Below, piece by piece: positions 11,358-41,998 of a stretch of 59,484 bases of DNA; the stretch's first letter is position 1; each line of letters starts with the position of its first letter. This DNA is from Candidatus Parcubacteria bacterium. GTDB lineage: Bacteria; Patescibacteriota; Minisyncoccia; Minisyncoccales; JAGLPU01. The notes below the pieces were generated by a model. It made no database searches. It worked only from the letters and a program-made list of their open reading frames with translations, and was not told the origin of the DNA. The translations under genes and the position numbers were made by a program. The stretch spans positions 1 through 59,484 of the forward strand of contig JAGLPU010000021.1 of NCBI GenBank assembly GCA_023137175.1. The letters run 5' to 3'.

Positions 11358-11989
11358 CCTCTAGCTATTACAAGACCGATAACTTGCTGAGTGCCTGCTT
11401 TTTTCAGAGCATCAGCGCATTCTTCCATAGTGTTTCCGGTAACATAGGTGTCGTTTACTAATAATATCTTTTTATTTTCCATTGGTTCGTTACAGAAGAA
11501 GATATTCTTATTTTTTCGCAAGGATTGGGAAAGCAATGGGATTTCTAGAAATTTCCTTAATTCTTCAGCTATTTCCTGCGCCGGGTTAAATCCTCTTCTT
11601 TTTATTTCTTTGACTTCTTGAGGAACAGGGATTAGCATGAAATCAGAAAAGTCAGGTTTTTTGCCTAATAAAAAGAAATGGGCTATAATTAAGGAGGTTA
11701 ACGGCTTCGCCAATTCTTTAATAAAAGGCTGATGTTTAAATTTGTGAATTAGTTTTTGGCAGAGCCTATTTTCCAAAGAAACAGCGTAGTAGAGACTGTC
11801 CAATTTTTTAGAAATACACTTAGAACATTTATCACCTTTACGCGGCTTTTGGCAAAGACAATACTGGCTTTCTGAAATTTCCAAACAAGATATGCAGTCT
11901 TGGCAGAGATGGCTTCCTTCTTGCCCGCAAACCAGACAAAAGCGGGGAAAAAGAAGATTTAGTATAAATTCTTTTATTTGTTTAAACAT
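11354..11989 (-). CDS. comF: ComF family phosphoribosyltransferase-like protein
   Basis: 211 aa. The N-terminus carries the ComF zinc ribbon (CLVCG...CQDC...CLCQ...CSKC) and the C-terminus a PRTase-like domain with PVP...KRRGFNPAQEIAE. The PRPP loop is degenerate, reading LLVNDTYVTGNT instead of the usual acidic-pair DD-x-TTG. ComF is needed for DNA uptake at the inner membrane in naturally competent bacteria. It is divergent from the pilM operon, so its position beside the type IV pilus locus supports a competence role. Start ATG at 11989. Confidence 0.85.
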   Translation of the reverse strand: MFKQIKEFILNLLFPRFCLVCGQEGSHLCQDCISCLEISESQYCLCQKPRKGDKCSKCISKKLDSLYYAVSLENRLCQKLIHKFKHQPFIKELAKPLTSLIIAHFFLLGKKPDFSDFMLIPVPQEVKEIKRRGFNPAQEIAEELRKFLEIPLLSQSLRKNKNIFFCNEPMENKKILLVNDTYVTGNTMEECADALKKAGTQQVIGLVIARG

Positions 11990-12024
11990 AGTTTATTCCC
12001 AATTGTTGTTTTCAGTTTTTATTG

Positions 12025-12030
12025 TATAAT
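12025..12030 (+). promoter_or_regulatory. -10 box for the type IV pilus operon
   Basis: A perfect TATAAT in the comF/pilM divergent gap, giving a predicted start near 12037 and a 24-nt leader to the pilM ATG at 12061. The -35 is poor. The same bases read TATTAT-like on the minus strand, so comF may share the site. Confidence 0.5.
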
Positions 12031-12060
12031 AAAAAGAAATAACAAAACAGGTTAAGTTTT

Positions 12061-13155
12061 ATGATTTGGTCTCCTTTTAAAGGTCTTTCTAAAAGATTTT
12101 TAGGAATAGATATTGGCACTTCTTCAATCAAAATTGTTGAAGTTTCTCGTTGGGGAAAAAAGAAAAAATTGGAAAATTATGGCGAGCTGAATTCAGCCAA
12201 TGTATATGAAGAGTCTTTTAGAACTTTTGAAAAAAATACTTTATTATTATCTGAAAAAGATGTCTCGCGGGGGATTAAGGCGATTATGGAAGAAGCAAAA
12301 ATAAGTACTAAAAAGGCTGTTTTATCTATCTCTGATTTTTCCACTTTTTATACTTCTTTTGAACTTCCTCCAGTCAGTAAAGAAGAACTTCCTAGAGCAA
12401 TTGAATTTGAAGCTCGTCGCTATATTCCTCTTCCCGTGTCAGAAGTTACTTTAGACTGGCAGATAACCGAAGGTAACTTTTCAGATAAGAAGAACAAGCT
12501 TAAGATATTATTGGTTGCTGTTCCTAATGAGATTATCAGACAGTACAAAAGCGTTGCCGCTCTTTGCGGTCTAGAGCTTGTAGCTCTGGAAGCAGAGGTA
12601 TTTGGCTTAGTAAGATCTTTGGCCGGAACTGAAAAAAAGACAATCTGCTTGGTGGATATTGGCTATCGCAGCACTACCGTCAGTATTGTTGATAAAGGAG
12701 TTTTAAAATTAAGCCATAGCTTTGACATTTCTGGAAATGATTTCACTCAACAAGTAGCTAAGTCTTTAGGCGTTGATTTTAAGGAGGCAGAGTTATTAAA
12801 ACAGAAGCATGGTTTATTACCTGATTCTGGGAAAAAAGTGGATGAAATTCTATATCCATTAGTTGATTTAATTTTAGCTGAACTAGAAAAGATTTTTAAT
12901 TTTATTTCTAAAAAAGAAGGAAAAAAAGTAGAAAAAGTTATTTTATCTGGCGGCTTATCTAGGCTGCCCGGTTTAAAAAACTATTTTTCAGTGCGGCTTA
13001 ACTCTAATCTTGAAAAAAATGAAGTGAGGAAAGAAGTAATTATTGGGAATCCTTTTACTAGTCTTTTTTATCCTCCAATTCTTGAAGAATCTTTAGAGAT
13101 TATGGGGCCCTCTTATGCTGTAGCAGTAGGCATGGCATTAAGGGGATTAAAATAG
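12061..13155 (+). CDS. pilM: Type IV pilus assembly protein PilM
   Basis: An actin-like cytoplasmic ATPase that links the PilB/PilC motor to the PilN-PilO inner-membrane ring. The 364-aa protein has the phosphate-1 motif FLGIDIGTSSIKIVE (14-28), a central ELPPVSKEELPRAIEFEARRYIPLP segment typical of PilM, the phosphate-2 region CLVDIGYRSTT, and the adenosine motif ILSGGLSRLPGL. First gene of a canonical pilM-N-O-P order. Starts after a TATAAT-led 24-nt leader. Confidence 0.92.
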   Translation: MIWSPFKGLSKRFLGIDIGTSSIKIVEVSRWGKKKKLENYGELNSANVYEESFRTFEKNTLLLSEKDVSRGIKAIMEEAKISTKKAVLSISDFSTFYTSFELPPVSKEELPRAIEFEARRYIPLPVSEVTLDWQITEGNFSDKKNKLKILLVAVPNEIIRQYKSVAALCGLELVALEAEVFGLVRSLAGTEKKTICLVDIGYRSTTVSIVDKGVLKLSHSFDISGNDFTQQVAKSLGVDFKEAELLKQKHGLLPDSGKKVDEILYPLVDLILAELEKIFNFISKKEGKKVEKVILSGGLSRLPGLKNYFSVRLNSNLEKNEVRKEVIIGNPFTSLFYPPILEESLEIMGPSYAVAVGMALRGLK

Positions 13156-39198: not shown

Positions 39199-39200
39199 AA

Positions 39201-39538
39201 GTTTTAGTAGGTCTATAAGCCGAATTTTGTATCTTTCTTTGTAGAAAGATTAGCGATTATCTATCTAAGCGAGCATAAGCTCTTGCACCAGATAGGGTTT
39301 ACCACGCCAAAACGTTACCGTCTGACGAAAGAAATTTTATTTTCTTACTTTTCACCTTAGCCTCAAATATCAGTTTTGCCTTTAGGGCGAAGCTTGACTT
39401 GATTGGCTGTTTAGTCTCTGTGGCACTTTCCCTAAGATCACTCTCGGTCGCAATTAACGACTACCTACTTCCCTTATCAAAGGGGGTGTCCGGACTTTCC
39501 TCCCCGCAAAACGGGGCAATCACCCAACCTACTAAAAC
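39201..39538 (-). ncRNA. rnpB: RNase P RNA
   Basis: Catalytic RNA that matures tRNA 5' ends. On the minus strand the 5' P1 strand GTTTTAGTAGG pairs with the 3' CCTACTAAAAC. The universal CRI segment GAGGAAAGTCCGGAC follows the P2 stem (around 39484-39503), and the 3' end carries the conserved AAATTCGGCTTATAGACC. A central GGTAAACCC-type CR segment and a 5' GGGTGATTGCC are present. Length about 338 nt, bacterial type A. It has its own TTGACA promoter and a GC terminator. Confidence 0.95.
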
Positions 39539-39779: not shown

Positions 39780-41432
39780 ATGATAAAACGACTTTTAAAT
39801 TCTCAAACGAAGACTATCGCCGCTTCAGCCATAGTTTTGGCGGTAGCCACTTTACTAAGCCGAATTTTGGGGTTAGTAAGGGACAGGTTATTGGCCGGCC
39901 GTTTTGGAGCGGGAACCGAGCTTGATGTTTATTTTGCTTCATTCCAAATTCCTGATTTGATTTATAATATTTTATTCACTGGCAGCATCGTGGTTTGTTT
40001 TTTGCCTCTGTTTTCTGAATATTATTTGAAAAATAAAGAGGAGAGCTGGCGCATGATGAATCACGTCCTGAATATCTTTTTATTCTTGCTCCTTTCTCTC
40101 TTGGGCCTTTTTTTTATTCTTGCTCCTTGGTTAGTTGAATATTTAGTTCCCGGTTTTACTGCAGAGAATAAAGCTATGGTGACTACTTTGACGCGGATAA
40201 TGTTTTTAAGTCCTTTATTCTTGGGACTTTCTTCTATTTTTTCCGGAGTGTTGCATTATTTTAATCGATTCCTGGCTTATTCTTTGGCTCCGATTTTCTA
40301 TAACCTTGGCATTATTTTCGGCATCTTGTTTCTAGCTCCTCAGTGGGGGATCTTAGGAGTGAGTTTGGGAGTGGTTTTGGGAGCTTTCTGCCATATGCTC
40401 ATTCAAATACCTTCGGCAATAAAGTCCGGTTTTAGGTATAAGATGCTTTTTGATTTTAAATATCCGGCTGTTAAAAAAATGTTTTTATTGGCTATTCCGC
40501 GTACTATTGCAGCAGCAGCTTCCCAAATAAATTTTATTGTTATCACTATAATTGCTTCTACCTTGGCTGTTGGCTCATTGACTGTTTTTAATTTTGCTAA
40601 TAATTTGCGCTATCTTCCTGTTGGACTGATTGGCATTTCTTTTGCCACTGTTTCTTTCCCTTTCCTTTCGAAAGCCTGGGCGAGCAATCAAAAAAAAGCT
40701 TTTATCAACAGTTTTTCTTCCATTTTCCGGCAAATTCTTTTTTGGGTCGTTCCAATAAGCTTGCTGATGTTCATATTAAGAGCTCAGTTTATCAGGCTCG
40801 TATTGGGAACAGGAGAATTTGGCTGGCTGGAAACAAGATTGACCGCGGCTTGCTTAGGAATATATTGTCTGGGAATTTTTGCTCAGGCCTTAATCCCAAC
40901 TATTCTGCGGATGTTTTTCAGCCTGCAAGACACTAAAACCCCAACCGTTATTGCTGTCGCGACAATATTTTTAAATATTATTTTTTCCATTGTTTTTGTT
41001 TCCTCATTAGGTTTTTCCAACTGGTTCAGCAATTTCATGAGAGATATTTTAAAGCTGGAAGAAATTCAAGATATCGCGGTAGTTGGATTGCCTTTGGCTT
41101 TTACTCTGATTATGCTTTGCCAGTTTGTTTTATTATTAATCTTTCTTTATAAAAAGATTGGCGATATTGACCTTAAGCGGATTATTAATTCATTTTTCAA
41201 AATAATTATCGCTGCTGTCTTTATGATTCCAACAACCTATGTTTCTCTTTATATTTTTGCCGAAGTTTTAGACACTAAAACTTTTTTAGGTTTATTCCTG
41301 CAAGCGGGAATTGCCGGAACATTGGGGATGTTATTTTATCTTTTTGTTTCTTTTTTATTAAAATCTTCAGAGCTGGCAGCAGCCAAAACTTCAATTTTTA
41401 GAGAATTTAGGAGTCAATTTTTTGACAAATAA
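39780..41432 (+). CDS. murJ: Lipid II flippase MurJ
   Basis: Flips the peptidoglycan precursor lipid II across the membrane. 550 aa from ATG 39780 (a longer frame from 39672 runs through the repeat element and is rejected). About 14 transmembrane helices. Typical segments: TLLSRILGLVRDRLLAGRFGAGTELDVYFAS at the N-terminus, NFANNLRYLPVGLIGISFATVSFPFLSK and PTILRMFFSLQDTKTPT. Membership of the MOP superfamily is clear. Its last codons contain the -35 box of the first small-peptide unit. Confidence 0.93.
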   Translation: MIKRLLNSQTKTIAASAIVLAVATLLSRILGLVRDRLLAGRFGAGTELDVYFASFQIPDLIYNILFTGSIVVCFLPLFSEYYLKNKEESWRMMNHVLNIFLFLLLSLLGLFFILAPWLVEYLVPGFTAENKAMVTTLTRIMFLSPLFLGLSSIFSGVLHYFNRFLAYSLAPIFYNLGIIFGILFLAPQWGILGVSLGVVLGAFCHMLIQIPSAIKSGFRYKMLFDFKYPAVKKMFLLAIPRTIAAAASQINFIVITIIASTLAVGSLTVFNFANNLRYLPVGLIGISFATVSFPFLSKAWASNQKKAFINSFSSIFRQILFWVVPISLLMFILRAQFIRLVLGTGEFGWLETRLTAACLGIYCLGIFAQALIPTILRMFFSLQDTKTPTVIAVATIFLNIIFSIVFVSSLGFSNWFSNFMRDILKLEEIQDIAVVGLPLAFTLIMLCQFVLLLIFLYKKIGDIDLKRIINSFFKIIIAAVFMIPTTYVSLYIFAEVLDTKTFLGLFLQAGIAGTLGMLFYLFVSFLLKSSELAAAKTSIFREFRSQFFDK

Positions 41433-41449
41433 GGAAATCCTGCTATTGT
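41422..41449 (+). promoter_or_regulatory. Promoter of small-peptide unit 1, TTGACA-N16-TATTGT with TGC extension
   Basis: TTGACA 41422-41427, TGC 41441-41443, TATTGT 41444-41449. Nearly the same sequence recurs at 41711-41738. Predicted start about 41456. Confidence 0.7.
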
Positions 41450-41455
41450 AGTGGT

Positions 41456-41513
41456 AAAAGAGGTTTGGTTAAATTAGCCAAACTAGTGATCTTTAAAAAA
41501 GAGGTGGGTGAAA
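41456..41513 (+). promoter_or_regulatory. Conserved leader of unit 1: hairpin plus Shine-Dalgarno
   Basis: Hairpin 41462-41484 (10 bp, GTTTGGTTA / TAGCCAAAC core, loop AAT), then GATCTTT, an A-run and AAAGAGGT (SD) 8 nt before ATG 41514. A classical SD is exceptional in this window. The hairpin covaries with unit 2. Confidence 0.7.
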
Positions 41514-41714
41514 ATGAAAATTCCAAAAGTAATGACAATAATAACATTTGCAGAAATTATAATTCGGCTATGTCTTCATATCGCAATCAGTTGGTGCAAA
41601 AGATTTAGCTTAGGAATATTGGTAATAACGATATTTGTTGCTGTGGATATTATTGATAAATTGTTTTATCCCAAAGAAAAACATAATAGCGCCAATGGCG
41701 CTTTTTCTTTTTGA
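41514..41714 (+). CDS. Small hydrophobic protein of unit 1, unknown
   Basis: 66 aa. N-terminal MKIPKVMTII, one or two hydrophobic segments (about 7-26 and 31-50, GILVITIFVAVDIIDKLF), then a short polar tail. ATG 41514 is set by the SD at 41500-41505; the in-frame GTG at 41508 is too close to it. The last codons read through the terminator stem, and the stop TGA is within the TTGACA of the next promoter, so the gene is packed as tightly as possible. No homologue recognised. Could be a membrane micropeptide. Confidence 0.6.
   Translation: MKIPKVMTIITFAEIIIRLCLHIAISWCKRFSLGILVITIFVAVDIIDKLFYPKEKHNSANGAFSF
41688..41711 (+). terminator. Terminator of unit 1
   Basis: AGCGCC-AAT-GGCGCT then TTTTCTTTTT. 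It lies inside the 3' coding end of the 66-aa frame, so either the frame's last residues are encoded by the terminator or the mRNA ends before the stop in some molecules. Confidence 0.8.
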
Positions 41715-41738
41715 CAAATAACAAAATTCTGCTATTAT
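41711..41738 (+). promoter_or_regulatory. Promoter of small-peptide unit 2, TTGACA-N16-TATTAT with TGC extension
   Basis: TTGACA 41711-41716, TGC 41730-41732, TATTAT 41733-41738; same spacing as unit 1. Predicted start about 41745. Confidence 0.7.
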
Positions 41739-41744
41739 AATTTT

Positions 41745-41803
41745 AAAAGAAGCTTAGCTAAACTAGTTAAGCTGATGGATCTTTGAAAAAGAGGTAAGTG
41801 AAG
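41745..41803 (+). promoter_or_regulatory. Conserved leader of unit 2: hairpin plus Shine-Dalgarno
   Basis: Hairpin 41751-41773 (10 bp, AGCTTAGCTA / TAGTTAAGCT, loop AAC), GATCTTT, A-run and AAAGAGGT, 8 nt before GTG 41804. Compared column by column with unit 1, two base pairs change on both sides (T-A to C-G, G-C to A-T) and two more stay pairable. Confidence 0.7.
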
Positions 41804-41860
41804 GTGATAAGCACAACAGTCACAATATTGTATAGAGCTGCGCATTCCTCATGGCATTAA
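41804..41860 (+). CDS. 18-codon leader peptide of unit 2
   Basis: GTG start correctly spaced from a Shine-Dalgarno; reads MISTTVTILYRAAHSSWH then TAA. It overlaps a second frame starting at ATG 41851. Either a true short upstream ORF whose translation couples to the next frame, or the first part of a ~53-aa gene broken by a frameshift. Confidence 0.4.
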   Translation: MISTTVTILYRAAHSSWH

Positions 41861-41961
41861 TGGTCGCCACAGTTCTTTCTGGTGGCGTAGAGGCGAAAGA
41901 AATTGTCTCAGTTGCTCTAGTTTCTGGGATAGCATGGTTAATGGCAGGTAGCGACGAATAA
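41851..41961 (+). CDS. 36-aa hydrophobic peptide of unit 2
   Basis: ATG 41851 to TAA 41961, in the -1 frame relative to the 18-codon peptide and overlapping it by 10 nt. Sequence MALMVATVLSGG...IVSVALVSGIAWLMAG: small, glycine/alanine-rich and hydrophobic, enough for one TM helix. No own SD. Functional state uncertain. Confidence 0.4.
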   Translation: MALMVATVLSGGVEAKEIVSVALVSGIAWLMAGSDE

Positions 41962-41966
41962 TTAAT

Positions 41967-41998
41967 ATGAGCATTTTCAGAATGCTCATTTCTTTTTT
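41967..41998 (+). terminator. Terminator of unit 2
   Basis: ATGAGCATT-TTCAG-AATGCTCAT, a perfect 9-bp stem, followed by TTCTTTTTT. Confidence 0.9.

Follow-up and report, generated by a model that had tools for sequence, protein, structure and literature searches.

The window, by which we mean the whole 59,484-nt stretch analysed here, belongs to a reduced genome that, going by its small size and the initial annotation, is probably Patescibacterial. It contains two units, U1 and U2, that lie head to tail (starting at 41422 and 41711) between two genes that, following the initial annotation, we take to be murJ-like and lepA. Upstream of the murJ-like gene, the minus strand encodes RNase P RNA of class A (39200-39535, 158 bits). 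Each unit consists, from 5' to 3', of a promoter, a triloop hairpin with a stem of 10 bp, a GATCTTTNAAAA-type element, a Shine-Dalgarno (SD) sequence, an open reading frame (ORF) and an intrinsic terminator. The tandem arrangement described in the initial annotation is thus present as claimed, and its hairpin coordinates are exact, as are the changes it reported between the two stems. The features are as follows.

41422..41449, plus strand: U1 promoter, with TTGACA at 41422-41427 and a TG-extended TATTGT at 41444-41449
41462..41484, plus strand: U1 leader hairpin, 10 bp with a triloop, boxB-like by position
41488..41499, plus strand: U1 boxA-like element, GATCTTTAAAAA
41500..41505, plus strand: U1 SD sequence AGAGGT, abutting the boxA-like element
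41514..41714, plus strand: U1 ORF, 66 aa, hydrophobic, with an ATG start (in-frame GTG at 41508), crossing its own terminator
41688..41712, plus strand: U1 intrinsic terminator
41711..41738, plus strand: U2 promoter, with TTGACA at 41711-41716 and TATTAT at 41733-41738
41751..41773, plus strand: U2 leader hairpin, 10 bp with a triloop
41778..41789, plus strand: U2 boxA-like element, GATCTTTGAAAA
41790..41795, plus strand: U2 SD sequence AGAGGT
41804..41860, plus strand: U2 SD-linked ORF, with a GTG start and only 18 codons
41851..41961, plus strand: overlapping hydrophobic ORF in U2, 36 aa, in a different frame from the SD-linked ORF
41967..41997, plus strand: U2 intrinsic terminator, which over 39 bases shares 90% identity with that of a third paralogue, U3 (contig C24)

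The T-run of the U1 terminator continues into the −35 element of U2, and in both units the start codon lies 8 nt past GAGGT. The promoter elements TTGACA and TATT(G/A)T had been read correctly, but the accompanying spacer of N16-TGC had not, since the 16-nt spacer already includes the TGC and is therefore N13-TGC. Over blocks of 66 and 43 nt the U1 and U2 leaders share 77% identity, and they have folding energies of −13.9 kcal/mol (U1) and −15.3 kcal/mol (U2), corresponding to z scores of −3.4 and −2.9. A covariance model built from U1, U2 and two relatives scores the two leaders at 107-114 bits and the rest of the window at 17 bits or less. The resemblance between the U1 and U2 leaders is far beyond chance. 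For comparison of SD usage, a loose test found SD sequences at 40 of 363 ORFs of at least 120 aa, spurious ORFs included, in 358 kb of the genome to which the window belongs.

Further copies were sought in relatives with covariance models, as the initial annotation had proposed. The first model (R1) was dropped, as it contained spurious promoter pairs; R2 was built from four leaders and R3 from twelve. Members turned up in genomes G045 (three copies), G060, G065, G088, G096, G119, G037 and G081, which represent six further families within the order. The genes behind these hairpins differ, except for a TPR-like pair in G065 and G088. The G037 and G081 leaders were outside the R3 training set, yet were recovered with promoter, boxA-like element and SD. 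A class-level scan of 384 genomes returned only the window's own genome and one coding chance match below 0.001, so that, at this sensitivity, no member of the hairpin family is seen outside the order. R3 matches below about 26 bits, as well as the class-level match in G438, were set aside as chance-like, many of them lying in coding sequence (for example, dnaX-like genes). DNA similarity searches of 147 relatives found, besides the copies in the same genome, only an orthologue in the same genus, the other matches being short, chance or coding by their look. No Rfam family reached its gathering score for the leaders, and the matches were weak, such as SraG on the other strand (23 bits, cut-off 50).

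In an alignment of 14 leaders, 95.4% of stem cells are paired, and pairing falls to 44-50% when the partner is slid by one column. Double-change cells number 21, compared with 6.5 in shuffled alignments, and none of 500 shuffles reached as high a count. Among mismatch cells, G-U outnumbers A-C by 21 to 4, as expected of an RNA hairpin and not of a DNA palindrome. The RNA hairpin is under selection.

BoxA is the binding site of NusB/S10 and is normally used in rRNA synthesis. Behind the stem, the hairpin members share GATCTTTNAAAA or near variants of it, and GATCTTTNAAAA is a conserved element in its own right; the more general element, GHWCNTTNANAA, agrees with boxA. In the same 358 kb of the window's own genome, GHTCNTTNAAAA has 10 intergenic copies, nine of which are followed by an SD sequence, a start codon and an ORF, and TTGACA is found in the printed upstream stretches of all nine. 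Control motifs (reversed and complement-tail) have no intergenic copies there. Across six genomes, sampled partially with contigs picked by size, an SD and start follow 43 of 91 intergenic copies of GHWCNTTNANAA, compared with 0-20% for its single-position variants: 10/188 with the G changed (Fisher P 5e-16), 32/281 with the C changed (P 4e-12), and 2/46, 3/40, 11/73, 0/40 and 12/59 for the others. The association also holds within the samples of G045, G008 and G019, in G008 mainly through GTACTTTGAAAA and similar sequences; it is absent from the samples of G065 and G007, and G007 encodes NusB but has no boxA-SD leader in 220 kb. A significant upstream hairpin accompanies just 12 of 43 boxA-SD leaders.

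In the six genomes the SD mostly begins between −1 and 10 nt past the element, and in U1, U2, U3 and the leader from G001 the distance is −1 to +1 nt, a closeness as in suhB-type sites, in which boxA is near the SD and no more than 50 bp from the start codon. In Escherichia coli suhB, 6 nt separate boxA from the SD, and the consensus is GYTCTTTAANA (PMC5725501). Two leaders of the window's own genome, C31 (GCTCTTTAAAAA) and C32 (GTTCTTTAAAAA), match this gamma-proteobacterial consensus exactly, whereas U1 departs from it by an A at position 2, and U2 by an A at position 2 and a G at position 8. A different arrangement is seen downstream of an 87-aa ORF in G081 (C57, L138), where a promoter is followed by GTTCCTTAAAAAC and then by a long hairpin and SD, with boxA first, as in lambda nut.

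The element is also found ahead of rRNA genes. GHWCHTTNMMAAT occurs in 7 of 13 rRNA leaders of relatives compared with 0.06 in shuffles, a descriptive figure, since the motif had been read from the same leaders beforehand. GATCTTTGAAAAT lies 144 nt ahead of the 16S gene in G008, GTACTTTAAAATT lies directly behind the promoter and ahead of 16S in G065, and several of the rRNA-leader elements of the order stand behind a hairpin. With the mRNA-derived pattern, most single rRNA leaders are non-significant. The window's own assembly (G000, 779 kb) contains no 16S rRNA gene, a common gap of metagenome assemblies, so that its own rRNA boxA cannot be read. It does encode NusB (C16:5874-6263, E 1.3e-35), which was detected in 12 of 14 genomes; in G065 and G145 the leader is present and NusB is undetectable. 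Co-loss of the two, suggested by G065, which is without NusB and nearly without boxA-SD leaders, was dropped because the G065 rRNA leader keeps a boxA-like element. In a sampled half of the window's own genome, a crude motif search gave no match for Rho, which says little. In G099 (C7, L048 1501-1615), a nusA-like gene has a leader with promoter, hairpin and AAAAAGAGGT and no clear boxA, possibly a case of separate Nus autoregulation.

The coding parts of the units are less orderly. In U1, no stop codon in frame precedes the terminator. The TGA that closes the ORF (41712-41714) comes only where the T-run ends, and normally terminated U1 mRNA may therefore be non-stop. Small hydrophobic peptides had been proposed for both units. 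This description holds for the U1 ORF, but not for U2, where the SD-linked ORF has 18 codons and the hydrophobic 36-aa ORF is out of frame with it, being either a coupled cistron or the 3' part of a frameshifted gene. The coding parts of U1 and U2 look degenerate, through either decay or assembly frameshifts, with their leaders intact. On contig C24 (L005) of the same genome, the U3 leader precedes a 134-aa protein, for which AlphaFold predicts two helices and a small beta domain at low confidence (pLDDT 62.6), a model too poor for a fold search. Pfam gave no usable match for the products of U1, U2 or U3, and a scan of genome contigs with the U3 protein found the known relative only. The one other genome of the genus that was analysed carries a U3 orthologue with the same downstream gene. 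The two proteins are 47% identical with a dN/dS of about 0.9-1.15, and the leaders are 85% identical; the adjoining gene is 91% identical to its counterpart, with a dN/dS of 0.06. Together with the covariation across 14 leaders, this contrast bears out the proposal that selection acts on the leader RNA. G045b, from a relative more distant than the same-genus genome, has the same leader type ahead of a protein related to that of U3 (23% identical, with the common pattern GYP..SI and IP.GL.VGD).

The suggestion of a mobile leader that captures small ORFs agrees with what is seen elsewhere, in that leaders have been copied between unrelated ORFs. The clearest case is on contig C13 of the same genome (L182), where two leaders 767 nt apart, C13a (11958-12071) and C13b (12725-12838), differ by about one base. 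They match from the T-run of the preceding terminator as far as the ATG, and with the start codon the identity stops; the two genes that follow have no relation to each other, one encoding a 202-aa protein and the other a protein that by eye is NUDIX-like. Such near-identity ahead of unrelated genes indicates that the leader was copied as a unit from promoter to start codon. The copying of leaders independently of coding sequence is thus supported. Further tandem units lie on G081:C57 and G045:C5. In the latter (L225 9867 and 10257), the leaders have the same boxA-like GAACCTTAAAAA, and the small proteins behind them share the N-terminus MINIELHG and then diverge. Leaders of this kind also precede adenylosuccinate-lyase-like, NUDIX-like, TPR-like and zinc-ribbon proteins.

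This range of genes bears on what the units are for. A dedicated membrane-micropeptide cassette, as initially suggested, is unsupported. The related suggestion, a type I toxin-like pair of micropeptides under regulatory leaders, draws on the tandem small hydrophobic ORFs. Against it, leaders of this kind also stand before large soluble proteins, the U1 ORF runs into its terminator with no stop in frame, the SD-linked ORF of U2 has just 18 codons, and no antisense gene was noticed in passing; we consider it extremely improbable. Almost as improbable is a role for the inverted repeat at the DNA level, as the operator of a dimeric repressor that acts where transcription starts. The palindrome does lie near and behind the −10 element, but its stem sequence varies widely with pairing retained, and its mismatches are of the G-U rather than the A-C kind.

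Two further explanations work at the RNA level. The leader could be a self-contained switch that sequesters the SD, as an anti-SD hairpin or RNA thermometer, with no Nus factor involved: GATCTTT would pair with AGAGGT, and the upstream hairpin would insulate or stabilise the structure. U1, U2, U3 and G001 form a second hairpin of 4-6 bp over the SD, the pairing probability between element and SD is 0.6-0.9 in the U family, and such an anti-SD hairpin could explain part of the conservation there, much as the U-rich stretch of fourU-type thermometers and other anti-SD leaders covers the SD. Sequestration is likewise seen in C13c, but it is absent from C13a (pairing probability 0.02) and C32 (0.00) and is not general to the members. 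Furthermore, G045c, G065 and G088 have elements of the GATCTTTNNAAATT type with no complementary SD beside them, the same element occurs in rRNA leaders, and the second hairpin has zero double changes, all of which makes the switch quite unlikely as the general explanation. Alternatively, boxA could act positively, with a Nus complex shielding the short units from Rho or pausing and the closeness of the SD being incidental. The order of hairpin then boxA, as in rRNA leaders, and the position directly behind promoters are what antitermination would predict, yet in most leaders boxA and the SD are no more than 10 nt apart, which in suhB is the layout that causes repression, and units that are short, monocistronic and equipped with intrinsic terminators would gain little from it. 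We therefore regard antitermination as unlikely, if worth keeping in mind.

The match of GATCTTTNAAAA to boxA, a signal that the order's rRNA leaders also carry, points instead to Nus-factor control, and the U1 and U2 leaders are probably, by analogy, Nus-factor leaders of the E. coli suhB type, in wider use and with a boxB-like hairpin. The nascent leader would fold the hairpin and leave boxA (GHWCNTTNANAA) exposed; NusB-S10 would then bind boxA and presumably join the RNA polymerase complex. With the SD in most cases no further than about 10 nt from boxA, the complex would, once bound, most likely obstruct loading of the 30S subunit, as happens at suhB in E. coli. During rRNA synthesis NusB/S10 may be drawn away and the gene expressed, although both the direction of control and the ribosome link are inferred. 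The leader is copied from gene to gene, U1 and U2 being a tandem pair of copies whose small ORFs are decaying or evolving fast.

In rRNA leaders, a hairpin (boxB) precedes boxA. The units resemble such antitermination leaders (boxB-boxA-boxC) in having a hairpin and then boxA soon past a strong promoter, with a motif common to the rRNA leaders of the order, and differ in continuing into an SD, a short ORF and an intrinsic terminator, not into rRNA. Lambda nut sites likewise combine boxA and a hairpin in the leader, in the reverse order, boxA preceding boxB. PMC10250234 lists both boxB and boxA as elements of rRNA leaders. In suhB, NusB/E binding represses translation, Rho termination then follows, and a consensus search has found 0-7 suhB-like sites per gamma-proteobacterial genome, ParE-like toxin genes among them (PMC5725501). 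The present leaders share with the suhB 5' UTR a boxA-type element directly upstream of the SD, a promoter of their own and, in some members, GYTCTTTAANA. Unlike it, many have a conserved hairpin before boxA, and their targets are unrelated and mostly without a known family. Their number also differs, with 13 SD-linked matches to a looser motif in 46% of one genome, compared with those 0-7 sites under a strict motif. The combination of hairpin, boxA and abutting SD, in a distant lineage and ahead of many unrelated genes, would thus fit a new arrangement relative to suhB and rRNA leaders. Our literature search on boxA or antitermination in CPR/Patescibacteria found nothing relevant.

That similar leaders recur in related species, ahead of many genes with no relation to one another, suggests that in these species ordinary genes are controlled by ribosome-synthesis factors. 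More tentatively, there may be an order-wide regulon of stand-alone accessory genes tied to ribosome synthesis through boxA-SD leaders, which new ORFs would join by acquiring a copied Nus-responsive front end running from promoter to start codon. To our knowledge, almost nothing is established about gene control in these reduced bacteria, and the boxA-SD leader offers a concrete, mutable element together with a candidate regulator, NusB-S10. If this reading is true, accessory genes would be linked to ribosome synthesis, leaders would move between genes as modules, and mRNA control by Nus factors, so far a matter of a few gamma-proteobacterial genes, would take in a larger number of genes in a lineage distant from these.
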